Assembly (NCBI RefSeq): GCF_001654865.1
Contig: NZ_LXEO01000015.1
Span: forward strand, 62,001-126,000
Direction of reading: 5' to 3'
Origin: Buttiauxella noackiae ATCC 51607
Lineage (GTDB): Bacteria; Pseudomonadota; Gammaproteobacteria; Enterobacterales; Enterobacteriaceae
Length of the DNA stretch: 64,000 bases
Both the position numbers and the translations under genes were made by a program. The notes below the pieces were generated by a model that was not told the origin of the DNA, did not search any database, and worked only from the letters and a program-made list of their open reading frames with translations. Positions 11,244 to 22,483 of this stretch are shown here, in pieces (position 1 is the first letter of the stretch; the number at the start of each line of letters is the position of its first letter).

Positions 11244-12134
11244 TTACACCAGCCCTGTGTTGACGCGCTTGCCTATCTCTTTAAGCTGCGAGTACTTCTC
11301 AAGCAGAGATGGGCCGTCATCCAGGCTCATGGCAAACATCCACATGTAGGTCATGACAGAGTAAATATGCCCGGCGTTCCCGACACCTTTCACGGTCATA
11401 AGCCAAATGGTCATCGCGAAAAGGAACGCTGCGGCAATACCAATAGATAAATAGCCGTATGCCTCCCGGTCGGACAAGCGAATACGGACACGCGCCAAAA
11501 AGTTGTAATGCTTGTTCAGCGTGTTTTCACTGGCAGTGCCGACAAAACCCACCTCTTTTTCCAGCCTGTCGTTGAGCTTCTCATATAACATTTCATTCTT
11601 GCGTGTATAGCTCGGCAGGAACATCACGAAGAAAATCAACACACCCAGACAAGCGACACCTGCCCAGAACTCAATCGTCAACAACATAATGACTGCGCCG
11701 ATAATTGATGCCACGGAGGTAATCAGTAGCGGCAGGTGTGTTTCAAAGAAATTGACAAATTCACGTGACAACGTCACGCGAGCGGCAATGGTCGAATGGC
11801 TATGATCATCCTCGCGCTGTGCAAGGATCACCGGCACGGCAAGTCCGGCATAGATTCTGGCAAATGTCCGGGTATCCATGCTGCGGCGTGCAGCACCTAT
11901 CGCCCACATCACAAAGACCACCAGCGCATACAGCAATGCATGTAGCGGTTGCCCTTTAATGATGGCGTTGATGGCAAATCCGGCCATTAATGGATAAAGC
12001 AAATAGATGATGTTTTCAGCGACCACCAGCATCAGCGTAATCACTAATTTTTTACTGTGGAGTTTTGCGAGTTTTTTTAATGTATTCATTGCGCCGCGTG
12101 ATGGTTTAAGCTCCGCGGTTTGGGTCGTATGCAT
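11244..12134 (-). CDS. ABC-transporter six-TM domain protein without an ATPase domain
   Basis: A 296-residue integral membrane protein resembling the transmembrane half of ABC exporters (Pfam ABC_membrane_3-like). It has hydrophobic segments at about residues 30-50, 65-85, 140-160, 165-185 and 240-260. Coupling-helix-like cytoplasmic loops such as REFVNFFETHLP and NTLNKHYNFLARVRI lie between them. No Walker A, signature or Walker B motif is present, and no ATPase gene adjoins it, so it is either a stand-alone relative or uses a partner elsewhere. It is divergent from a TetR gene with two palindromes between them, which points to TetR control. The function is unknown. Confidence 0.8.
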   Translation of the reverse strand: MHTTQTAELKPSRGAMNTLKKLAKLHSKKLVITLMLVVAENIIYLLYPLMAGFAINAIIKGQPLHALLYALVVFVMWAIGAARRSMDTRTFARIYAGLAVPVILAQREDDHSHSTIAARVTLSREFVNFFETHLPLLITSVASIIGAVIMLLTIEFWAGVACLGVLIFFVMFLPSYTRKNEMLYEKLNDRLEKEVGFVGTASENTLNKHYNFLARVRIRLSDREAYGYLSIGIAAAFLFAMTIWLMTVKGVGNAGHIYSVMTYMWMFAMSLDDGPSLLEKYSQLKEIGKRVNTGLV

Positions 12135-12160
12135 GACTTTGTATTCTTAAATTGTTATTC

Positions 12161-12209
12161 TTGAGCGGTTGCTCAAGAGTGAAGGAAGTCTATTTGAGCA
12201 CTTGCTCAA
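12161..12209. promoter_or_regulatory. Twin TetR operator palindromes
   Basis: Two perfect-armed palindromes lie between the divergent start codons: TTGAGCGGTTGCTCAA (12161-12176) and TTGAGCACTTGCTCAA (12194-12209). Arms TTGAGC/GCTCAA flank a 4-bp centre, and the sites are 33 bp apart, about three helical turns. They are the obvious binding sites for the adjacent TetR protein. Confidence 0.8.
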
Positions 12210-12228
12210 AGTCAACGAAGGTGCCGTT

Positions 12229-12813
12229 ATGAAAGAGAAAGCGTCTGTTCTGAAAGAGAATATTCTTGATGCAGCGATCGCCCTGTTTACTGAAAAAGGA
12301 GTGGAAAAGGTCACCACTCGCGAATTAACAGAACAGGTTGGGATAGCCCGTAGCCACATTTACCACTATTTCCCGGACTGGCAGACGTTATGCATTGCAG
12401 CATTTTCGCGCTTTATGTACGCAGAACTGGACGCTTTTAGCCAAAAAACGCGTGCCTTGCCGCCGGAGCAAGGTTTGAATATTTTTGTTGAAGACTATTT
12501 ACCGGACCGTGCTGACGCGGTGTGGGAGCTGTATGGATCGTTGTGGCGCCTGGCCGTGCATAACAAGGTTTACGCCGATCTGGCGTTAACGTTGACCGAA
12601 AAGTGGGATGCTTTGCTGGCGAGTATTATTGAGTCGGGCATTGAAAGCGGCGTTTTCCGCCAGACCGATGTCTGGCGAACAACCCGTCAGCTTGGTGCAT
12701 TGCTTAACGGGTATTCGGATCAACTGATTATCGATAGCGCGCCACTTGCCCGCGATCAGGCTTTAGAAGATATCCAGGCATTTATCAGTCAGATTTTAAT
12801 TACGGATAAGTGA
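12229..12813 (+). CDS. TetR-family transcriptional regulator
   Basis: A 194-residue TetR repressor. The HTH domain is at about residues 8-55 (LKENILDAAIALFTEKG and the recognition region HIYHYFPDW). The remainder is an all-helical ligand-binding and dimerisation domain. ATG 12229 (MKEKASVL) is preferred, because the upstream in-frame start at 12169 would translate through one of the operator palindromes. It is divergent from the membrane-only ABC protein and probably represses both genes through the twin palindromes. Its 3' end overlaps the convergent binding-protein gene by 14 bp. The ligand is unknown. Confidence 0.88.
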   Translation: MKEKASVLKENILDAAIALFTEKGVEKVTTRELTEQVGIARSHIYHYFPDWQTLCIAAFSRFMYAELDAFSQKTRALPPEQGLNIFVEDYLPDRADAVWELYGSLWRLAVHNKVYADLALTLTEKWDALLASIIESGIESGVFRQTDVWRTTRQLGALLNGYSDQLIIDSAPLARDQALEDIQAFISQILITDK

Positions 12814-13696
12814 TCCCCGGGGGATTCACTTCAGACGAAGCGACTTCTTCACCCTTTTCACCCCATCTGTCGAGAACTTGCTGGTATTCGCCACGTTTCG
12901 CTGCACCATCGAGGGCTGCCTGTAATGCATAAACCAGCCCGTTCCCTTTTTTGGTAGTGGTCGCAACATAGGCTTTCTTAGGCCCAAGCCCTACAACACG
13001 CGTTTTCCCAGTCAGAGCCGCTTTATAGGCCGCCACACTCTGCGGGCCGAAGGTCGCATCAGCTCTTCCGGCCTGAATATAGAGGTTGCCGGAAGCGTCA
13101 TCCGTCAGGTAAATCGGCTGAGCCGGTTTGCGCCCTGCTTGTTCATTTTGGTCATTCCAGCCCAACAGAATTTTTTCCTGATTCGTACCGGAACCTAAAA
13201 TAATTCGTAACCCGCTAACATCTGCTGGCCCTTCAATTTTTTGAATCGGGCTGTCTGATTTCACCGAAAATGCCAGAGAATCTACGCGATAGGTCGCAAA
13301 ATCAAACTTAGTTTTACGCTGCTCGGTTACCGCAATATTCACTAATGCCACATCATAGCGACCGGATGTAATGCCAAGAGGCCAGTCTTCCCAGGCGGTA
13401 GGCACAAGTTTGAGTTTTAGCCCTAAGCTATCGGCCAGTAAACGTGCAATATCAGGATCGCTACCGATCCTTGTGCGGTTATCACTTGCAAGCATTGCAA
13501 GCGGTGGCGAATTTAGCGCTGAAATCGCCACAGTCAGGGTGCCCGGCTCAACAAATTTATAGCCTTGTGGAATTTTACTGATAGCCACAGGGTCTTTAGC
13601 CGTATGTATCGGCACTTCATTAGCTTTAAGATCAAGACTTCCCTGTGCAAAGCTCGCCGAGCTAACTATCAGCAGCGCCAGTGGGACAAATTTCAT
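12800..13696 (-). CDS. Amino-acid ABC importer binding protein, copy 2
   Basis: A 298-residue family-3 periplasmic binding protein with a signal peptide cleaved near residue 18 (FAQG). It is clearly paralogous to the binding protein at 15919-16854. Shared segments include ALNSPPL, the SWEDWPLG-type loop, KFDFATYR, SPIQKIE and LGSGTNQE. It is the last gene of an eight-gene minus-strand operon, 9 bp after the ATPase gene. The two receptors may widen substrate range, as TcyJ/TcyK do in the Bacillus ytm operon. Substrates in this family are cystine-like or S-substituted amino acids, but specificity here is inference. Confidence 0.85.
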   Translation of the reverse strand: MKFVPLALLIVSSASFAQGSLDLKANEVPIHTAKDPVAISKIPQGYKFVEPGTLTVAISALNSPPLAMLASDNRTRIGSDPDIARLLADSLGLKLKLVPTAWEDWPLGITSGRYDVALVNIAVTEQRKTKFDFATYRVDSLAFSVKSDSPIQKIEGPADVSGLRIILGSGTNQEKILLGWNDQNEQAGRKPAQPIYLTDDASGNLYIQAGRADATFGPQSVAAYKAALTGKTRVVGLGPKKAYVATTTKKGNGLVYALQAALDGAAKRGEYQQVLDRWGEKGEEVASSEVNPPGITYP

Positions 13697-13705
13697 AACT
13701 GCTCC

Positions 13706-14485
13706 TTAGAGAACTTTTGATAAAAACTGACGCGTTCGCGAATGTTGTGGATGGTTAAGCACTTCGTCGCTGCAGCCTTGCTCAACGATTTTCCCGTCGA
13801 CCATAAACACCACGTTATCCGCCACTTCACGGGCAAATCCTATCTCATGGGTGACGACCACAAGCGTTGTGCCAGATCGGGCCAGTTTTTTAATCACATC
13901 CAGCACTTCGCCCACCAGCTCCGGATCGAGTGCGGACGTAGGTTCATCAAACAGCATCACGCGTGGGCGCAATGCCAGCGCACGGGCTATGGCGATACGT
14001 TGCTGCTGACCGCCGGAAAGATGGCGCGACCAGGCATCCGCTTTATTACGCAGCCCCACCACATCAAGTAATTGATAGGCTTGTTCAATAGCCGCTTTTC
14101 GGCTCAGCTGTTTATGGGCAATCGGTGCTTCGATCAGGTTTTCCAGTACCGTGAGATGCGGGAACAAATTGAAGTTTTGAAATACATAGCCAACGTTGAT
14201 GCGCTGACGCAGGATCTCTTTTTCTTTCAGTTCATACAGCTTGTCGCCGGCCTGACGATAGCCAATGTAATCACCATCAATCTGGATGAAACCCTCATCT
14301 ACACGTTCAAGATGATTAATCGCGCGCAACAAGGTGGATTTACCGGAGCCTGACGGCCCAAGGATCACCGTCACAGAACCGGGCTCCAGTTCCAGTGAGA
14401 CGTTATCCAGCGCTTTATGACGGCCAAAATATTTACTCACGCCGGTAATCGAAATTTGGCCAGTCTGGTTATGGGAGTGGTACAT
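13706..14485 (-). CDS. Amino-acid ABC importer ATPase (GlnQ/TcyN/YxeO type)
   Basis: A 259-residue cytoplasmic ATPase of a polar amino-acid importer. The motifs are Walker A GPSGSGKST, the Q-loop YVFQNFNLFPH, signature LSGGQQQR, Walker B VMLFDEPTSALD and the switch HEIGFA. The start at ATG 14485 (MYHSHNQT) lies inside the permease 3' end, a 17-bp overlap that implies translational coupling. A longer frame to 14590 would read through permease coding sequence. It is the ATPase for the permease upstream and for one or both paralogous binding proteins. Confidence 0.9.
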   Translation of the reverse strand: MYHSHNQTGQISITGVSKYFGRHKALDNVSLELEPGSVTVILGPSGSGKSTLLRAINHLERVDEGFIQIDGDYIGYRQAGDKLYELKEKEILRQRINVGYVFQNFNLFPHLTVLENLIEAPIAHKQLSRKAAIEQAYQLLDVVGLRNKADAWSRHLSGGQQQRIAIARALALRPRVMLFDEPTSALDPELVGEVLDVIKKLARSGTTLVVVTHEIGFAREVADNVVFMVDGKIVEQGCSDEVLNHPQHSRTRQFLSKVL

Positions 14486-15395
14486 GGGCGGCCTCCTGGG
14501 TATGCAGCACAGGCTGATGTGACGGATGACGAGCTGGAGTTTGTTGATTAATCGCGGAGCGGCGTTCACTACGTGCCAGCCAGCGTTCAACCAGATGTTG
14601 AATCAGCGACAATACGCTTGTGATAACCAGATACCAGACCGCCCCCACCATTAGCAGTGGGATCACTTCCTGGGTGCGGTTGTAGATCATCTGAATGGTG
14701 TAGAACAGCTCAGGCATCGCCAACACGTAAACCATCGCCGTGCCTTTAGCGAGACTGATAATTTCATTAAAACCTGAAGGCAAAATAGTGCGCAGCGCCT
14801 GCGGCAGAATAATACGCAGCGTACGACGCCATGCGGGTAGCCCTAACGCTGCCGCCGCTTCATATTGCCCGTGATCCACGCCCAGGAAACCACCGCGAAT
14901 GATCTCGGCTGTATAGGCGCTTTGCACTAACGTCAGGCCAACCACGGCGGTAGAAAACTGCCCCAACACGTTTATCGTTTGGTAACTTCCCCACTGAATC
15001 TGGGTAAACGGAATACCAATCGAGAGCGTGTCGTACAGATAGGAGAAGTTATAGAGAATAATCAGCACGACAATCAGCGGCAGTGAACGAAACAGCCAGA
15101 TATAACTCCACGCAAGGCTATTTAGCAGCCACGAAGACGAAAGCCGTGCCAGCGCCAGCATTCCGCCAATCACTACACTCAGCACAGTCCCTATTAGCGT
15201 CAGCAGTAAAGTTTGCGCCAGTCCTTCAAGAATTACCGGATCGAAGAACCAGCGGGCAAATACGCTCCACTCCCAGCGGGGGTTAAATGCAACCGACTGG
15301 ATAACCACAGCCAGTACAAACAGAGCGATAATCGCACCGAGTGTTCTGAGCGGATAGCGCGCAGGCACCACTTTAATCGTTGATGGGGTATGCAT
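14469..15395 (-). CDS. Amino-acid ABC importer permease (HisMQ/YxeN type)
   Basis: A 308-residue inner-membrane permease with five main hydrophobic segments. The amino-acid-permease EAA loop (EAAAALGLPAWRRTLRIILP) is the site that docks the ATPase. A proline- and histidine-containing hydrophilic tail of about 30 residues overlaps the ATPase start. Only one permease gene is present, so it would form a homodimer, as in the Bacillus yxe system; the ytm system has two. The gene lies 9 bp downstream of the GNAT gene. Confidence 0.9.
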   Translation of the reverse strand: MHTPSTIKVVPARYPLRTLGAIIALFVLAVVIQSVAFNPRWEWSVFARWFFDPVILEGLAQTLLLTLIGTVLSVVIGGMLALARLSSSWLLNSLAWSYIWLFRSLPLIVVLIILYNFSYLYDTLSIGIPFTQIQWGSYQTINVLGQFSTAVVGLTLVQSAYTAEIIRGGFLGVDHGQYEAAAALGLPAWRRTLRIILPQALRTILPSGFNEIISLAKGTAMVYVLAMPELFYTIQMIYNRTQEVIPLLMVGAVWYLVITSVLSLIQHLVERWLARSERRSAINQQTPARHPSHQPVLHTQEAAHVPLP

Positions 15396-15404
15396 AAGTA
15401 CTCC

Positions 15405-15908
15405 TCAGGCCGTTTTGCTCAGACGAGCTAACTCTTTGGTAAAACGCAGGCGGCCGTCGAACGGAGCCACACTGTATTCTTCCCGGTTACGGTGAATATC
15501 AAACTGCGGTTGATAGCCAAGGCTCAGATAAAGCTTCACCGCTTCTGGCTGGCGAAAACCGGTAGTCAGATAGATATGGCGATAACCGGCAATCTGCGCG
15601 CGACTTTCCAGCTCACGCATCACACGCTGAGCAAGCCCTTGTTGGCGTAGTGCAGGATGCGTCCAGATCCGTTTCACTTCGGCTGTCTGCTCGTCGAATG
15701 GCTTATAAGCGCCAGTGGCAATAATTTCACCGTCACGCTCCAGAACAATAAACAGCCCCTGTGGTGTCAGATACCATTCGGTTAGTTCGACTTCAGCATC
15801 ACGGGAAAAATAGTCGCCGTAGCGCGCTTCATATTCTTGAAACAGCCCAGCAATAATCGGCTGTAGTTCTGGCGCCTCAGGTGAAACATCACGAAATTGT
15901 TCACGCAT
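15405..15908 (-). CDS. GNAT N-acetyltransferase (YxeL/SnaA-like by context)
   Basis: A 167-residue acetyltransferase with the GNAT acetyl-CoA loop in the form RQQGLAQRVM and a following YLTTGFRQPEAVKLYLSLGY segment. It sits between binding-protein and permease genes of the S-modified-cysteine-type operon. In the Bacillus yxe and ytm operons, the equivalent enzyme N-acetylates S-(2-succino)cysteine or related thioethers before a monooxygenase cleaves the C-S bond. That role is inferred from synteny. The general family call is firm. Confidence 0.85.
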   Translation of the reverse strand: MREQFRDVSPEAPELQPIIAGLFQEYEARYGDYFSRDAEVELTEWYLTPQGLFIVLERDGEIIATGAYKPFDEQTAEVKRIWTHPALRQQGLAQRVMRELESRAQIAGYRHIYLTTGFRQPEAVKLYLSLGYQPQFDIHRNREEYSVAPFDGRLRFTKELARLSKTA

Positions 15909-15918
15909 GTTCTGCTCC

Positions 15919-16854
15919 TTAATCGCCGAGTCCGGCTGGGTTAACTTCAGATGCCGGGATTTGCTCTACGCCTTCTCCCCAGCGATTCAGGACTTTGTGG
16001 TAATCCCCATTTTTGATGACACCATTGAGCGCAGTTTGTACTGGCTCCACGAGCCCACTGCCTTTCTTCAACGTGACGGCGATATGTGCAGCTTTAGGCC
16101 AGCCGCCATCCACCACGCCAACTAACTGGGTTTTCTGCGTGAGTGCGGCTTTCCAGGCACCCGTTACATTGGGGCCAAAGAACGCATCAGCGCGACCGGA
16201 CTGCAATGCCAGCGTTTGTGCCGCATCGTCTTTGGTATATACCGGGGTGAAGGGTTTAAGCCCTTTCTTCAGGTTCTCTTCATTCCATGCGAGCAAAATA
16301 GACTCCTGGTTGGTCCCGGAGCCGACAATAATGCGCAGCCCTGCAATGTCCTGTGCTTTCTCAATCTTCTTGATTGGGCTGTTAGATTTCACATAGAAAC
16401 CCAGTGAATCTTTACGGTAGGTGGCGAAGTCGAATTTCTGTTTGCGATCTTTGGTGACGGTAATATTGCTGATTGCCGCATCGTATTTCCCCGATGCCAC
16501 ACCCAATGGCCAGTCTTCCCAGGATGTGGGTACGACGTTGAGTTCAAGCCCTAAGCTGTCAGCCACCAGACGTGCAATATCGACTTCGCTGCCGAGCAAC
16601 GTTTTGTTGTCTTCAGCAAACACCGTCAAGGGTGGCGAGTTAAGTGCCGCAACGGCTACGGTGAATTTACCGGGCACCGCAAAATGATGATCTTTTGGCA
16701 GCTGTGCCACAGCCGATGGATTTACGGCCGTATTAATCGGCGTTTTATTGGCCTCGAGACTGACGCCAGTACCGTTAATGGTGACTTCTTGTGCCAGAGT
16801 TTGTGCCGACGAAAGTGCCAGAGCGATAGCAAGGATTAGCGATATTTTTTGCAT
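15919..16854 (-). CDS. Amino-acid ABC importer binding protein, copy 1
   Basis: A 311-residue periplasmic family-3 binding protein with a signal peptide cleaved near residue 21 (TLAQE). Its body aligns with the copy at 12800-13696, with the shared blocks VAALNSPPL, TSWEDWPLG, DFATYRKDSLGF and GSGTNQE. Both copies lack the YPPYE opening of ArgT-type receptors and form their own subgroup. It starts about 110 bp after the monooxygenase gene. A REP-type repeat lies in that gap, which may modulate expression of the transport half relative to the enzymes. Confidence 0.85.
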   Translation of the reverse strand: MQKISLILAIALALSSAQTLAQEVTINGTGVSLEANKTPINTAVNPSAVAQLPKDHHFAVPGKFTVAVAALNSPPLTVFAEDNKTLLGSEVDIARLVADSLGLELNVVPTSWEDWPLGVASGKYDAAISNITVTKDRKQKFDFATYRKDSLGFYVKSNSPIKKIEKAQDIAGLRIIVGSGTNQESILLAWNEENLKKGLKPFTPVYTKDDAAQTLALQSGRADAFFGPNVTGAWKAALTQKTQLVGVVDGGWPKAAHIAVTLKKGSGLVEPVQTALNGVIKNGDYHKVLNRWGEGVEQIPASEVNPAGLGD

Positions 16855-16881
16855 AGCAGGTTCTCTTTTTTATTTTGGTGT

Positions 16882-16957
16882 TTTGTCGGATGGCGCTTTG
16901 CTTATCCGACCTACGAAAGCGCCGTTGTAGGGGGGATAAGCGTTAGCGCCATCCACC
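16882..16957. repeat. REP-type repeat pair inside the sulfur operon
   Basis: Two inverted units, GTCGGATGGCGC...TTATCCGAC and GGGATAAGCG...CATCCACC, lie head to head. Both are versions of the enterobacterial intergenic unit that also occurs at 22.5 and 37.2 kb. It can form stable hairpins in the transcript between the enzyme and transporter genes. Confidence 0.7.
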
Positions 16958-16966
16958 ATTTTGCGC

Positions 16967-18277
16967 CTACGAAAATTGATTTACCGGATTGGCGAGCCCC
17001 AGGCTTTCGCGCAGCGTAGTACCGGGATACTCCTTGCGGAACAACCCACGGGCTTGCAGTACCGGGACAACTTCATCGACAAAGCGTGGGAAGGTATCAG
17101 GCGTACCGCCCTGAATAATAAAACCGTCGGCGCCATAGCTTTCAAACCACTGCTGCAGCCCATCTGCCACTTGCTGTGCGGTCCCGGAAAAACGCGGGCG
17201 CGGTGATGCTGCTTCAAGCGCGACCTGGCGCAGCGTCAGATTGCGTGTCTGAGCATTACGTTTGATTTCATCTGTGGTACTGCGGAAGCTGTTCTGCCCC
17301 AGGTCACCGATATCCGGGAAGGGTTCATCAAGCGGGTACTGGCTAAAATCGTGATGCTCAAAATAGCGGCCGAGGTAATTCAGGGCATCGTTAATTGAGA
17401 CCAGTGCGGCGGTCGTTTGATATTGGTTCTCCACATCATCAGCATCTTTCCCAACGATCACGCTGACACCCTGGAATATTTTTAAGTCATCGTCCTTACG
17501 GCCATGATTTTTCAGTTGACCTTTAACGTCACGATAGAAATGTTGCGCCTCTTCAAGAGTTTCATGATGGGTGAAAATAGCGTCGGCATGGTGGGCGGCT
17601 AATTTCTTGCCGTCGTCTGATGCACCTGCCTGGAATACAATCGGACGACCTTGCGGCGTGCGGGAAATATTCAGCGGGCCTGCTACCTGGAAGAAATCTC
17701 CGCGATGATCCAGCGTATGTAATTTATTAGGGTCAAAGAATTGCCCACTGGCTTTATCACGAATAAATGCATCTTCTTCCCAGGAGTCCCACAGTCCTTT
17801 CACTACATCCAGATATTCATCGGCAATGCGATAACGCAGCGCATGCTCAGGGTGTTTTTCACGGGAAAAGTTCTTCGCTGAACCCTCCAGCGGCGATGTC
17901 ACCACGTTCCAGCCCGCACGTCCTTTACTCAAATGGTCAAGGCTTGCAAACTGGCGAGCGACGGTAAAGGGTTCGCTATATGAGGTAGACAGTGTGCCAA
18001 CCAACCCCAAATTCGTAGTGACGCTGGCTAATGCTGACAACACCGTTAATGGCTCAAATCTATTCAGGAAGTGAGGAATCGACTTTTCGTTAATATATAA
18101 ACCGTCTGCGACAAATAAAAAATCCAGTTTGCCCGCTTCTGCTTTTAACGCCGTCTCTTTCACAAATTCAAAACTAATGCTGGCATCCGCAATTGCTGCC
18201 GGGTGCCGCCATGCCGACATATTTCCTGATGCGCCATGTAAGATTGTTCCAAGACGCAGTTGTCGATTATTTGACAT
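16967..18277 (-). CDS. FMN-dependent monooxygenase, NtaA/SnaA/DszA family (YxeK/CmoJ-like)
   Basis: A 436-residue flavin-dependent oxidoreductase of the bacterial luciferase superfamily. Visible family blocks are the N-terminal [46 protein letters not shown], the insert region [26 protein letters not shown], and [15 protein letters not shown]. These enzymes need FMNH2 from a separate reductase and oxidatively cleave C-N or C-S bonds. In Bacillus, YxeK and CmoJ act on N-acetylated S-(2-succino)cysteine-type thioethers. The neighbours here (GNAT, deacylase, importer) match that operon, so C-S cleavage is the best guess. No flavin reductase gene is adjacent. Confidence 0.85.
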
Positions 18278-18339
18278 ATTTACCTCTTTATTTTGGCCGC
18301 ACGCATCCTGGGGAGTTGACCCCTGCGTATTAGCTATTG

Positions 18340-19476
18340 TTAGTTTTGCAGTAGTGCTTTTTCAGCAAGCGTTGCGAAATATCGTGCCGCATTTTCAATT
18401 AATGTCTCATCCGGATTAAACGCCGAATGATGTAAACCATAAGGGCTGGCGCTACCAATACTGACAAATGCGCCGGGAATGGTTTGCAGATAAACAGCAA
18501 AGTCTTCGCCACCCATATGCAGTTCGGAGGTTTGTGTCTTATAACCCACACTTTCTGCAACCTGCATAGAAAACGCCGCCCATTTCTCATCGTTGATTAA
18601 CGTCACCGGCCCGTTAAACCACTCCACATCAATCTGTGCGCCAAAGGCACTGGCTAAGCCGGAAGCAATTTCGCGGATGCGTTTCTCGACCTGTTTTTGA
18701 ATATCACCACGATGAGTGCGCACGGTTCCTTCAAGCTCAACGTTTTCAGGCAGCACATTCCAGGTATTCCCCCCTTGTATGCGTGTCACACTCACGACCA
18801 CCGAATCGAGCGTATCAATATCGCGACTGGCAATAGTTTGCAGCGCGATAACCAGCTGGCTTGCCAATACAATGGGGTCGTGGCCCTCATGTGGGCGGGC
18901 GGCATGAGCGCCTTTTCCTTTCACCCGCAAAACAAAGCGATCAACATTGGCATAGAATGCGCCGCCTCTGGTGGCAAAGGTGCCGACCGGTAAACCGGGT
19001 TCGTTATGCATCCCAAAAATAGCTGAGACATTTTCCAGAGCCCCGGCCTTAATCAGTGCCTTTGCGCCGGTAAAATTTTCTTCCGCCGGTTGAAACAGCA
19101 AGCGCACGCGACCTGGCAATTGGTCTTCACGCTCCTTAAGTAACAGAGCTGCGCCGAGGATCACGCTGCTGTGAACATCATGCCCGCAGGCATGCATCAC
19201 GCCATCGTGTTGTGAACTAAAAGAGACACCGCTGGTTTCCTGAATCGGCAGTGCGTCAATATCCGCACGCAGCGCAATCACCTTATCGCCGTGCCCTACT
19301 TCAGCCACCACACCAGTGGCAAGTGAGTACGGCAACAGACGCAGCCCTGCGGACTCCAGCCAGTGACGTATGCGAGCGGTAGTTGCCACTTCCTTGCCGG
19401 ACAGTTCAGGGTTCTGGTGGAGTTCACGTCGCCAGTCGATAAGCTGTTGTTTGAATGTCTGTGGGGCGAATGTCAT
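18340..19476 (-). CDS. M20 amidohydrolase (N-acetylcysteine deacetylase-like, YxeP-type)
   Basis: A 378-residue metal-dependent amidohydrolase with the M20D motifs [35 protein letters not shown] and [11 protein letters not shown], and GGEDFAVYL near the C-terminus. The start is ATG 19476 (MTFAPQTF). Upstream in-frame codons lie in the preceding gene's 3' region. In the Bacillus yxe operon the equivalent YxeP removes the acetyl group from N-acetylcysteine to release free cysteine, and this gene sits in the matching set. A general N-acyl amino acid deacylase role is the alternative. It is a different paralogue from the enzyme at 7931-9091. Confidence 0.87.
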
Positions 19477-19486
19477 TGGCAACCCC

Positions 19487-20509
19487 TTACCAGGCTTCAT
19501 GCTGTGCAGCAAAATCGAGGTGCGATATTGCAGGCTGAGCGCCAGCCAACAAACGCAGCGACTGCAAACGTGCTGCCGGGTCGGCAATCGGGGTATCAAT
19601 GATAAATTCGTCGATACCAAACTGTTGGCTCAATGCCTCAAGTCCGGCATGTACTTGCTCTGCGGTACCTTTAAGCAGCGAGGGTTCGCGTCGTTCGATT
19701 TTTTTGATAGCGCTGCCTGCCTGGCGAGCAAATGCGTGAGCCTGCGCTTCACTGGCGACACTAACGCGTTGGCTGTTTTCAAGCTCAACGCTCCAGATTT
19801 CCACCAGGCTTGCCAGTTCATCGGCGGTATCTGTATCAGCCGCCACAATCACCTGCACCGCCACCTGCGTGTCGCGTTGGCTTTTACTACGCCACGCGTT
19901 AAGAACATCGCGCATCAGGGTTTTATCGCCATTCAGATGGGCGGCGTAGACGAAATTCCAGTTAAGATTTGCGGCAAGCTGTGCACTCTCAAGGCTTGCG
20001 CCCAGCAAGAAACGCTCGGCACTTTGTGCAGGAACCGGCGTTGCGCGTAAGGTTTCCTCGTCATCCTGTGCTGCTGGTAATGAGAGCCAGTTATCAAGTT
20101 GAGTGAGTTTTTCCGCGAACGACTCTTTATCTTGCCCGGCACGTTGCAATGCTTGTGTGGAAAGCGGTAACCCACCTGGCGCTTTACCCACACCGAGATC
20201 CACACGCCCTGGAGCAAGACTTGCTAATAAATTGAAGTTCTCCGCCACTTTATAAGGGCTGTAATGTTGCAACATCACCCCGCCGGAGCCGACACGAATG
20301 CGGTGGGTTTGCCCAACAATCCAGGCAATAAGCAACTCAGGAGACGGGCTTGCCAGGTGGGAAGTGTTATGGTGCTCGGCAATCCAGAAACGGTGATAAC
20401 CCCAGGCTTCGGCCTGTTGAGCCAGATGTAACGTGTGCTTGAGAGCGTCGCCAGGAGTGCCATCCTTTGCGACCGGACTTTTATCCAGCAGGCTAATTCG
20501 ATAAGACAT
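19487..20509 (-). CDS. Luciferase-like FMN oxidoreductase (CmoO/MsnO8-like)
   Basis: A 340-residue flavin-dependent oxidoreductase of the single-chain luciferase-like group. Blocks include SLLDKSPVA at the start, GYHRFWIAEHHN, RIRVGSGGVMLQHYSPYKVAENF, LAPGRVDLGVGKAPGG and the C-terminal GTAEQVHAGLEAL. It is the first gene of the operon. B. subtilis ytmO (cmoO), of similar length, occupies the ytm operon beside cmoJ. The present operon thus carries two flavin monooxygenases, which may act on different thioethers or in sequence. No reductase is encoded nearby. Confidence 0.85.
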   Translation of the reverse strand: MSYRISLLDKSPVAKDGTPGDALKHTLHLAQQAEAWGYHRFWIAEHHNTSHLASPSPELLIAWIVGQTHRIRVGSGGVMLQHYSPYKVAENFNLLASLAPGRVDLGVGKAPGGLPLSTQALQRAGQDKESFAEKLTQLDNWLSLPAAQDDEETLRATPVPAQSAERFLLGASLESAQLAANLNWNFVYAAHLNGDKTLMRDVLNAWRSKSQRDTQVAVQVIVAADTDTADELASLVEIWSVELENSQRVSVASEAQAHAFARQAGSAIKKIERREPSLLKGTAEQVHAGLEALSQQFGIDEFIIDTPIADPAARLQSLRLLAGAQPAISHLDFAAQHEAW

Positions 20510-20820
20510 GCGACCAACTCGTATTGTTTAACATGTCTTAATTAATAAGGTTTCCGTCAACGTGAGTGAAACAATTAATTTACATTTAGTTAGCCAAAAA
20601 CTGGATAAGCCCATCCATTGGGATCTAAAGTTTCATATATGGCCTATTGTAGTATTTATTAATTATAAATAGATCTTTTATGACCCTTTTGATTGACATT
20701 AGTCCATAAATGACCCATTTTTATTATTAATTTAATAAAAAGACCATTTATGACCCCTTTGATTAAAAGTGGCTCATAAAAAACCAATGTATTGTCAAAA
20801 AATGAATCTAAGGGTCATAT
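20510..20820. promoter_or_regulatory. Divergent promoter region with six phased hip operator-like repeats
   Basis: An AT-rich intergenic region between the flavin monooxygenase operon and hipB. It holds six copies of a degenerate palindrome GGTCAT-NN-ATGACC, beginning at 20631, 20672, 20702, 20742, 20772 and 20813. Spacings are 41, 30, 40, 30 and 41 bp, close to alternating four and three helical turns. Sites 2-3 and 4-5 also form a larger direct repeat of about 70 bp with CCTTTGATT-type spacers. The last copy covers the hipB start codon. The arrangement suggests cooperative autorepression by HipB. No equally clear promoter for the monooxygenase operon was found. Confidence 0.75.
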
Positions 20821-21144
20821 ATGAACTATGACAACGCAGACCTCGTCGCCAAGCTGCATACCATGAGTGAATTATTGAGTGACGTTAAAAAAGCGGTGGC
20901 ACTGAGAGCGCAAGAGTCAGATCTGGCGCTAACCGAACAGGTCATTACGGAATCTGTACAGTTGGGGCAACAATTAAACCAACGTCGCAAAGAACTGGAG
21001 ATCGACCTGGCAACCCTTGAGCTGCAAACGGGTGTTTCAGCATCAACGTTGAAACGGCTGTTTAAAGATCCCGATCAGGTCAAATTTGGTACCGTATTGA
21101 GTGTCGCTGACGCATTAGGAGTGAAACTGTGCGCCGCCGTGTAG
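20821..21144 (+). CDS. hipB: HipB: DNA-binding component of a HipBST toxin-antitoxin system
   Basis: A 107-residue protein with an acidic, helical N-terminal half and a C-terminal Xre-type HTH at about residues 55-107 (LATLELQTGVSASTLKRLF, then FGTVLSVADALGVKL). It is the DNA-binding and repressor component of the tripartite system. The last operator-like repeat overlaps its start codon, and an AAGGGT site precedes the ATG. The 3' end overlaps hipS by 16 bp. In the E. coli O127 HipBST system HipB binds DNA and enhances antitoxin action, while HipS is the main antitoxin. Confidence 0.88.
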   Translation: MNYDNADLVAKLHTMSELLSDVKKAVALRAQESDLALTEQVITESVQLGQQLNQRRKELEIDLATLELQTGVSASTLKRLFKDPDQVKFGTVLSVADALGVKLCAAV

Positions 21145-21443
21145 AAGTGTGGTTATACGGTGAAGCGGTGGGTGAATTGCGCCAGGATGATGATGGTTTT
21201 GCGTTTAGCTACCATGCCGACTATATCGGCCCGCCGCTCTCCTTAAGTTTACCGGTGCGTGTTGGCCACTTTCACAGCCGAACTCTACCGCCCTTTTTTG
21301 CATCATTAGCACCTGAAGGTTGGTTGAAAAGGCGTTACAGCCAACTGCAACAACGCGATGAGCATGATCTACTCGGTATGCTGATTGATAACGGCAAGAA
21401 CCTGATTGGCGCAGTTCAGCTGGTCAACATTCTGGAGGATTAA
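21129..21443 (+). CDS. hipS: HipS: small antitoxin equal to the HipA N-subdomain 1
   Basis: A 104-residue protein matching the Couple_hipA (N-subdomain 1) region of long HipA kinases: VEVWLYGEAVGELRQ, then LSLSLPV and FFASLAPEGW. Translation seems to begin at GTG 21129 within the hipB 3' end, which implies coupling. In HipBST systems this part of ancestral HipA became a separate gene whose product neutralises the kinase. The TAA is followed 2 bp later by hipT, and the GGAGG ribosome site for hipT sits inside the hipS 3' end. Confidence 0.88.
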   Translation: MRRRVEVWLYGEAVGELRQDDDGFAFSYHADYIGPPLSLSLPVRVGHFHSRTLPPFFASLAPEGWLKRRYSQLQQRDEHDLLGMLIDNGKNLIGAVQLVNILED

Positions 21444-21445
21444 CA

Positions 21446-22483
21446 ATGCGCTGCCACATTCTTTTGACTCCGCTGGTGCAGGCCAAAGAGCGGGAGTCTG
21501 GTTATTCAAACAAAGGCCTCAAGCACCTGACCAGCTCAGGTAAGGTCAACCCGCAGCTGAGTTTTACGCGCAGTGAATTTATTCACGAATTGCCAAAAGC
21601 CCAGCGAGGGATGAGTATTTCCGGGTATCAACCAAAACTGCAAATGGTGGTGCGCGATGGCGAGTTTGCGGTGGTAGAGCATCAGGGTGAATACATACTC
21701 AAACCCTCTCCGGCCGAATTTCCACATCTGGCAGAAAATGAACACGCGACAATGACGCTAATGGCGCGACTCGGATTTGACGTACCGCCACATGGATTAG
21801 TCAGTTTTGCGCCTGAAGGAAATGATACTGAACGTGAGTTGGCCTTTGTTATCCGCCGTTTTGACCGGGATATGATAACTGGCGCGGCCATTCACCAGGA
21901 ACAGCTTGATGCGGCGATGAATATTGGCGAGAAGTACGGCAAAACCGGCAGCGACGGTAAGCAGTATGTTAGCTATCAGCAATTGGCAGAGTTTCTGACC
22001 CAACATGTGAACAGCAACCTCGCCTTTAAAATCGACTTGTTCCGCCGTATCACCTATGCGTATTTGCTGGGTAATAACGATATGCATCTACGCAATTTCG
22101 GCTTGATGCATCCAAGAGTTGGCGAACCAACGCTATCCCCGATTTATGACTTTGTCTCCGTTGCCCCCTATCCCACCATTTTTAGCTCAGGATTTATGGC
22201 GCTGCCATTACTGAGTTGCGAGGAAGGCGACCGGGAGTTAGCGCCAGGTTTTAAAACCGCCTATGGTGAATATCTGGGTATGGATTTTCGGGAACTCGGC
22301 CTGGCGATAGGATTGACCGACAAACTTATCGTGAAGTTATTGAATGATTTGCAAAAAGAGAGCCGCATTGTGGAAGCGGTATATCGTGATTCGTTTATGC
22401 CACCCGAGGCGATTGCCGCCACGTTGCGTTGTTACCATCAGCGGCTGGACAGGTTGATGCGCCTGGATGAAGCGGAGTTGTGA
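21446..22483 (+). CDS. hipT: HipT: serine/threonine kinase toxin
   Basis: A 345-residue HipA-like kinase lacking N-subdomain 1, which is encoded by hipS. The Gly-rich loop reads GMSISGYQPK with Ser57 and Ser59; E. coli HipT autophosphorylates at S57 and S59. Other kinase parts are Lys86 (YILK), the catalytic loop GNNDMHLRN with Asp212, and the metal-binding YDF with Asp235. E. coli HipT phosphorylates tryptophanyl-tRNA synthetase and stops growth, and the same target is likely but unproven here. The gene is intact, with no missing kinase residue. An excellent GGAGG site lies 7 bp before the ATG. Confidence 0.9.
   Translation: MRCHILLTPLVQAKERESGYSNKGLKHLTSSGKVNPQLSFTRSEFIHELPKAQRGMSISGYQPKLQMVVRDGEFAVVEHQGEYILKPSPAEFPHLAENEHATMTLMARLGFDVPPHGLVSFAPEGNDTERELAFVIRRFDRDMITGAAIHQEQLDAAMNIGEKYGKTGSDGKQYVSYQQLAEFLTQHVNSNLAFKIDLFRRITYAYLLGNNDMHLRNFGLMHPRVGEPTLSPIYDFVSVAPYPTIFSSGFMALPLLSCEEGDRELAPGFKTAYGEYLGMDFRELGLAIGLTDKLIVKLLNDLQKESRIVEAVYRDSFMPPEAIAATLRCYHQRLDRLMRLDEAEL

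Follow-up and report, generated by a model that had tools for sequence, protein, structure and literature searches.

Does the sequence of an enteric bacterium encode a pathway that takes sulfur from S-modified cysteines, and which of the flavin-dependent routes described in Bacillus would it follow? The question is raised by a locus of Buttiauxella noackiae ATCC 51607, analysed here within a stretch of 64,000 nucleotides (nt) of contig NZ_LXEO01000015.1 (positions 62,001 to 126,000 of the forward strand; hereafter the window). On its minus strand lies an eight-gene operon for two flavin monooxygenases, an M20-family amidohydrolase, a GNAT acetyltransferase and an ABC importer with two binding proteins. 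In a first-pass annotation this operon had been read as taking up S-modified cysteine, acetylating it, cleaving its C-S bond with a flavin enzyme and deacetylating the product. This general reading still fits the data best, whereas its further claims of a YxeK-type enzyme, of a mixture of two Bacillus operons and of the same gene set needed correction. We consider it likely that the genes form an operon of the CmoO/CmoJ (Bacillus ytm) type for the salvage of S-alkylcysteine. Since the large monooxygenase groups with YtnJ and a CmoO-like gene lies beside it, the CmoO/CmoJ route is the most likely one.

Operon architecture

Eight open frames were found at 12800-20509, the same coordinates as annotated initially, and the operon on the minus strand was confirmed by the frames and gaps themselves, by Pfam and NCBIfam families and by conservation in relatives. 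Transcription starts with the gene of the MsnO8-family monooxygenase, here called LLM_O (19487-20509, 340 amino acids (aa)), followed by the M20 amidohydrolase (18340-19476, 378 aa when the ATG is taken at 19476) and the NtaA/DmoA-family monooxygenase, called LLM_J (16967-18277, 436 aa). Downstream are periplasmic amino-acid-type binding protein 1 (15919-16854, 311 aa), the GNAT N-acetyltransferase (15405-15908, 167 aa), a single ABC permease of the polar amino acid type (14469-15395, 308 aa), the ABC ATPase (13706-14485, 259 aa) and the second periplasmic amino-acid-type binding protein (12800-13696, 298 aa). Along the transcript the gaps between genes are 10, 62, 112, 10, 9, -17 and 9 nt, the negative value being the overlap of the permease and ATPase genes, and an AGGAG-like stretch stands shortly 5' of the ATG in each of the last four genes. 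Pfam assigned Bac_luciferase to both monooxygenases, Peptidase_M20 and M20_dimer to the amidohydrolase, SBP_bac_3 (PF00497) to both binding proteins, Acetyltransf_1 (PF00583) to the GNAT, BPD_transp_1 (PF00528) to the permease, which also matched TIGR01726, and ABC_tran (PF00005) to the ATPase.

The two flavin monooxygenases

LLM_J scored 549 bits against the NCBIfam NtaA/DmoA model TIGR03860 (cut-off 280) and is closely related to a protein of solved structure; no other full-length match to it was detected in its own genome. Initially the enzyme had been described as YxeK/CmoJ-like, and only the CmoJ/YtnJ part of this description stood. Compared with the proteins of B. inaquosorum, LLM_J showed 55.8% identity to YtnJ vs 48.9% to YxeK. 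A tree of 48 rows, for which the program issued a long-branch warning, placed LLM_J within a 23-row clade of YtnJ-type proteins from Bacillus, Psychrobacillus and Paenibacillus (support 100/99), and the sole YxeK row fell outside. Diagnostic positions were defined as those uniform within four YtnJ-group and within two YxeK sequences but differing between the groups; of 63 such positions LLM_J agreed with YtnJ at 46 and with YxeK at 6, while the other 11 matched neither group. Altogether, judged by its sequence, LLM_J is a YtnJ/CmoJ-type enzyme and an orthologue of CmoJ. Its assignment as YxeK is not supported by identity, tree or diagnostic positions.

Because LLM_J is of the YtnJ/CmoJ and not of the YxeK type, S-(2-succino)cysteine, one of the substrates put forward at first, is not favoured. 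A YxeK (ScmK) route would consist of acetylation, direct oxygenation of N-acetyl-S-(2-succino)cysteine and deacetylation, and the operon does contain acetyltransferase, monooxygenase, deacetylase and importer families as in PMC9706529 and PMC12757645; its M20 enzyme is 48% identical to YxeP and, like yxe, it has one permease. However, apart from the position of LLM_J in a clade without YxeK, the identity of 48.9% compares with the >50% to the B. subtilis enzyme that PMC9706529 set for close homologues. The operon also encodes an extra CmoO-type monooxygenase that is foreign to the YxeK route and was linked in 29 of 36 relatives, and no class I lyase, the enzyme of the 2SL pathway, was found among the eight proteins with Pfam. 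We regard degradation of S-(2-succino)cysteine by the YxeK route as very unlikely.

The small monooxygenase LLM_O matched the NCBIfam MsnO8 model TIGR03558 with 341 bits (cut-off 167). Among five Bacillus paralogues it was closest by identity to YtmO (40%), the others reaching 38, 33, 30 (over 275 aa) and 27%. From sequence, orthology of LLM_O with CmoO/YtmO appears likely but not firm.

The association of both monooxygenases was followed through the family. In a sample of 295 genomes from a larger group, LLM_J was present at E <= 1e-150 in 63 genomes and 29 of 154 genera, the genome of B. noackiae counted; one of the 63 copies (G219) has an in-frame stop. Linkage was studied in 36 genomes (28 genera) picked from these 63. 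LLM_O was located at most 4 kb from LLM_J on the same strand in 29 of the 36 and GNAT in 31, with both of them there in 26. The space between LLM_O and LLM_J was 48-609 nt and thus too small for an M20 gene in seven of the 29 same-strand cases, one of which is a truncated LLM_O match (G236); M20 elsewhere in those seven genomes was not searched for.

M20 enzyme, GNAT and importer

The M20 enzyme has kept the motifs HACGHDxH, PAEE, GMHN and HH, which we take to be the metal ligands. It was 48% identical to YxeP and 47% to YtnL, and both of these were demonstrated to be N-acetylcysteine deacetylases in B. subtilis (PMC12757645). As it is about equally near to both, the M20 enzyme cannot separate a ytm from a yxe pathway.

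Most of the remaining proteins were less similar to Bacillus counterparts. Identity of GNAT was 24% to its ytm and 28% (over 86 aa) to its yxe counterpart; for the binding proteins it was 21-25%, and for the permease 29-30% with respect to those of ytm and yxe. The ATPase reached 47-49%. The two binding proteins, each with an apparent signal peptide at its start when inspected by eye, are paralogues with 54.8% identity to one another. For both binding proteins, the permease and the ATPase the best NCBIfam match was a cystine-transporter model, in the case of the ATPase the cystine ABC ATPase TcyN, each below the cut-off of that model. A Brachybacterium locus (L038) was nearer, with 50% identity for the permease and 58% for the ATPase. 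In this and a second inspected Brachybacterium locus (L045) related importer genes stand beside two adjacent NtaA-type monooxygenases of another branch. This suggests that the importer type is common to several organosulfur pathways. Since its permease and ATPase are closer to a locus with other NtaA-type monooxygenases, the importer seems to have been joined to the CmoO/CmoJ core independently, as far as identities rather than a tree can tell.

The Brachybacterium loci also bear on another explanation, namely that the operon uses non-cysteine organosulfur compounds such as sulfones or sulfides, GNAT and M20 acting on an acylated amine intermediate. The related importers there adjoin quite different NtaA-type monooxygenases, and the substrates of solved NtaA/DmoA members are many. 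Against this stand the placement of LLM_J in the CmoJ clade, the CmoO-like partner, the resemblance of M20 to N-acetylcysteine deacetylases and the cystine-transporter models that best matched the importer proteins, so that a non-cysteine substrate seems improbable.

None of the eight proteins belongs to a flavin reductase family according to Pfam. The operon had been noted from the start to lack its own flavin reductase; this is right, yet unremarkable, because homologues of E. coli Fre (83%) and SsuE (79%) are encoded elsewhere in the genome.

Proposed pathway and substrates

In Bacillus, S-alkylcysteine is acetylated and then converted by CmoO to the sulfoxide, which CmoJ cleaves with flavin and oxygen into an aldehyde and N-acetylcysteine sulfenic acid; reduction and deacetylation finally yield cysteine (PMC10863075). 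The CmoO/CmoJ route would run as follows in the enteric operon. Judged by domains and context, the ABC importer with its two binding proteins would import S-substituted cysteines and GNAT would acetylate the amino group of the imported S-alkylcysteine. LLM_O, for which family membership and linkage speak, would act as N-acetyl-S-alkylcysteine S-oxygenase and turn the thioether into the sulfoxide. LLM_J, as the orthologue of CmoJ, would be the sulfoxide C-S monooxygenase that uses reduced flavin and O2 to release an aldehyde and N-acetylcysteine sulfenic acid; the chemistry of both oxygenation steps was shown with the Bacillus enzymes. General cell thiols may reduce the sulfenic acid, the M20 enzyme, by its similarity, would serve as the N-acetylcysteine deacetylase that releases cysteine, and reduced flavin could come from the Fre or SsuE encoded elsewhere.

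Open candidates for the substrate are the S-methyl, S-allyl and S-benzyl derivatives of cysteine as well as cysteine sulfoxides from plants. Both Pantoea and Klebsiella carry the genes, which makes plant compounds a reasonable guess but nothing firmer. A more specific version holds that in nature the operon serves plant S-alk(en)ylcysteine sulfoxides (methiin, alliin and related compounds): a dedicated importer of the enterics would take them up, and after acetylation they would go straight to the CmoJ step, with CmoO needed for reduced thioethers only. The operon would then help Pantoea, Klebsiella and relatives to scavenge sulfur while living on plants and plant food. We offer this version tentatively and think it rather doubtful as a whole.

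Comparison with the Bacillus operons

Gene names in the B. inaquosorum regions used for comparison were anchored by identity to the solved YtnJ and YxeP chains; the remaining ytm and yxe genes carry the names that presumably apply. The ytm region contains, in this order, GNAT, two binding proteins, two permeases, ATPase, the LLM_O homologue, a 93-aa frame that looks glutaredoxin-like by eye, the LLM_J homologue, a 233-aa frame, M20 and a 300-aa frame. In the yxe region the order is LLM_J homologue, GNAT, binding protein, permease, ATPase and M20.

With ytm/ytn the enteric operon shares a CmoJ (55.8%), a CmoO-like enzyme (40%), an M20 deacetylase (47%) and an ATPase (47%), together with a GNAT and two binding proteins of an amino-acid-type ABC importer in one operon. 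It differs from ytm/ytn in having one permease where Bacillus has two, in gene order, in binding proteins, permease and GNAT that are only distantly related, and in that the 93-aa, 233-aa and 300-aa Bacillus frames are without counterpart among the eight. An acetyltransferase, an NtaA-type monooxygenase, an M20 deacetylase, one permease and one ATPase are likewise found in yxe/scm, but there the YtnJ-clade monooxygenase, the CmoO-type monooxygenase and the second binding protein of the enteric operon are missing. The 2SL variant of the yxe cluster in Enterococcus italicus and Dickeya dadantii follows an alike scheme of acetylation, breakdown and deacetylation (PMC9706529), whereas a lyase is absent from the eight enteric proteins.

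Thus, the early statement that the genes are the same set as yxe and ytm is true by family only and not by closeness: GNAT (24-28%), binding proteins (21-25%) and permease (29-30%) are remote, and only the CmoJ-like, the M20 and probably the CmoO-like enzymes appear close to ytm. The operon had also been thought to combine parts of both Bacillus operons. Such a hybrid is not needed and was rejected, because the B. inaquosorum ytm operon alone has GNAT, binding proteins, permeases, ATPase and CmoO-, CmoJ- and M20-type genes, i.e. every component kind.

Several observations weigh against a CmoO/CmoJ-type salvage operon. The joint branch of LLM_O and YtmO reached a support of 88/97, short of firm, in a tree of 21 rows that included part of the genus loci and from which the broken Klebsiella copy and Bacillus paralogue L074 (alignment below the length limit) had been left out; the next Bacillus paralogue was almost as similar to LLM_O as YtmO (38% vs 40%). 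Among the 36 linkage genomes, three had LLM_O on the opposite strand and four lacked it in the 4 kb around the main LLM_J copy, two of these four being without a match at E <= 1e-70. The LLM_O matches of G179 and of G249, the latter away from the main LLM_J copy, contain an in-frame stop. Finally, GNAT and most of the importer are only distant kin of the Bacillus proteins, and the glutaredoxin-like gene of Bacillus has no counterpart among the eight.

Distribution in relatives

The cut-off of the NtaA/DmoA model was exceeded in 16 of 40 genomes: B. noackiae itself, 10 of 11 genomes of the same genus (G002-G011) and five of other genera; the remaining genome of the genus (G001) gave weak matches only. 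All eight genes were present in 10 of the 11 sampled genomes of the genus, and their order and strand were identical in the 10 regions examined as well as in G012 from a second genus, the only one of the five other-genus genomes in which the operon was shown. One Pantoea plasmid, the one examined, carries all eight genes in identical order. In Pantoea sp. MT58 at least permease, GNAT and binding protein genes are present. A Klebsiella record matches all eight, with LLM_O and binding protein 2 each split into two frames and the ATPase matching only from residue 35. No close match was found when E. coli genomes were searched with the operon DNA. The pathway is known from Bacillus; the enteric operon adds a further member and appears to be a common form of it among enterics.

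A second LLM_J homologue with 57-60% identity occurs in 11 family genomes (G279, G196, G246, G052, G281, G200, G063, G249, G317, G143 and G147). In five of the 36 linkage genomes (G052, G063, G143, G246 and G249) the sole GNAT match lies at most 4 kb from this second copy, which points to a sister pathway.

Upstream region and neighbouring genes

LLM_O is separated by 311 nt from divergent hip-type genes, and two conserved zones were recognized in this space. The promoter-side region at 20510-20600 (minus strand) contains the block AAATGTAAATTAATTGTTTCACTC, which is conserved in an alignment of 11 upstream regions of the genus and is a candidate control site; by eye, a related block was seen in G012 and in the Klebsiella record. 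A whole-genome search for the block gave eight matches, its own site with one mismatch and the other seven with three, and the reversed-pattern control gave four. No regulon is therefore supported, and a shared regulator site was dropped. Promoter and terminator scans stayed below those of shuffled sequences (3 vs a mean of 8.2 and 6 vs 9.3, respectively) and were not used.

The second zone is an array of six near-palindromes at 20631-20826 with a consensus like GGTCATWWATGRCC (at most three mismatches) and a spacing of 41, 30, 40, 30 and 41 nt, the last near-palindrome running into the start of the hip-type gene. When three mismatches were allowed, this pattern gave 38 matches in the whole window, where shuffled sequences gave 26.2 on average; the array accounts for 12 of the 38 (six sites on both strands). 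To the eye, 11 aligned members of the genus seem to retain the positions with some drift, a strict pattern being present in six of the 11. The HipB-like regulator probably has its operator in this array, and these operators may also touch the control region of the salvage operon. The plus strand at 20821-22483 holds three separate frames, one for a HipB-like antitoxin, a short one that matches the HipA N-terminal domain and a HipA-like one of 345 aa (weak match); together they form a three-part hip module, which we take to be hipBST-like. In the genus relative L064 the HipB-like gene is kept together with only a short fragment of the large HipA-like frame.

Two genes, one ABC-transporter-like and the other, divergent, for a TetR-type regulator, lie at the other end of the operon (11244-12813); in the window the end of the TetR-type frame overlaps the last operon gene tail to tail by 14 nt. 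The same two genes flank the operon in all 10 regions of the genus, and no match to them was detected in the G012 region with its eight genes.

Biological significance

No account of the enteric operon turned up among the top-ranked papers in searches of open-access literature, and subscription work, e.g. a 2014 study of S-alkylcysteine degradation in Bacillus, may already note it; in the passages of PMC12174637 consulted, on plant sulfur acquisition, the operon is not treated. If the proposed pathway is true, the tempting assignment to S-(2-succino)cysteine would be corrected and it could be predicted which enterics are able to use S-alkylcysteines as sulfur source. The recently described flavin chemistry of oxidative cysteine-sulfoxide cleavage would then be at work in about one fifth (63 of 295) of the sampled genomes of the family, to which both gut and plant bacteria belong.

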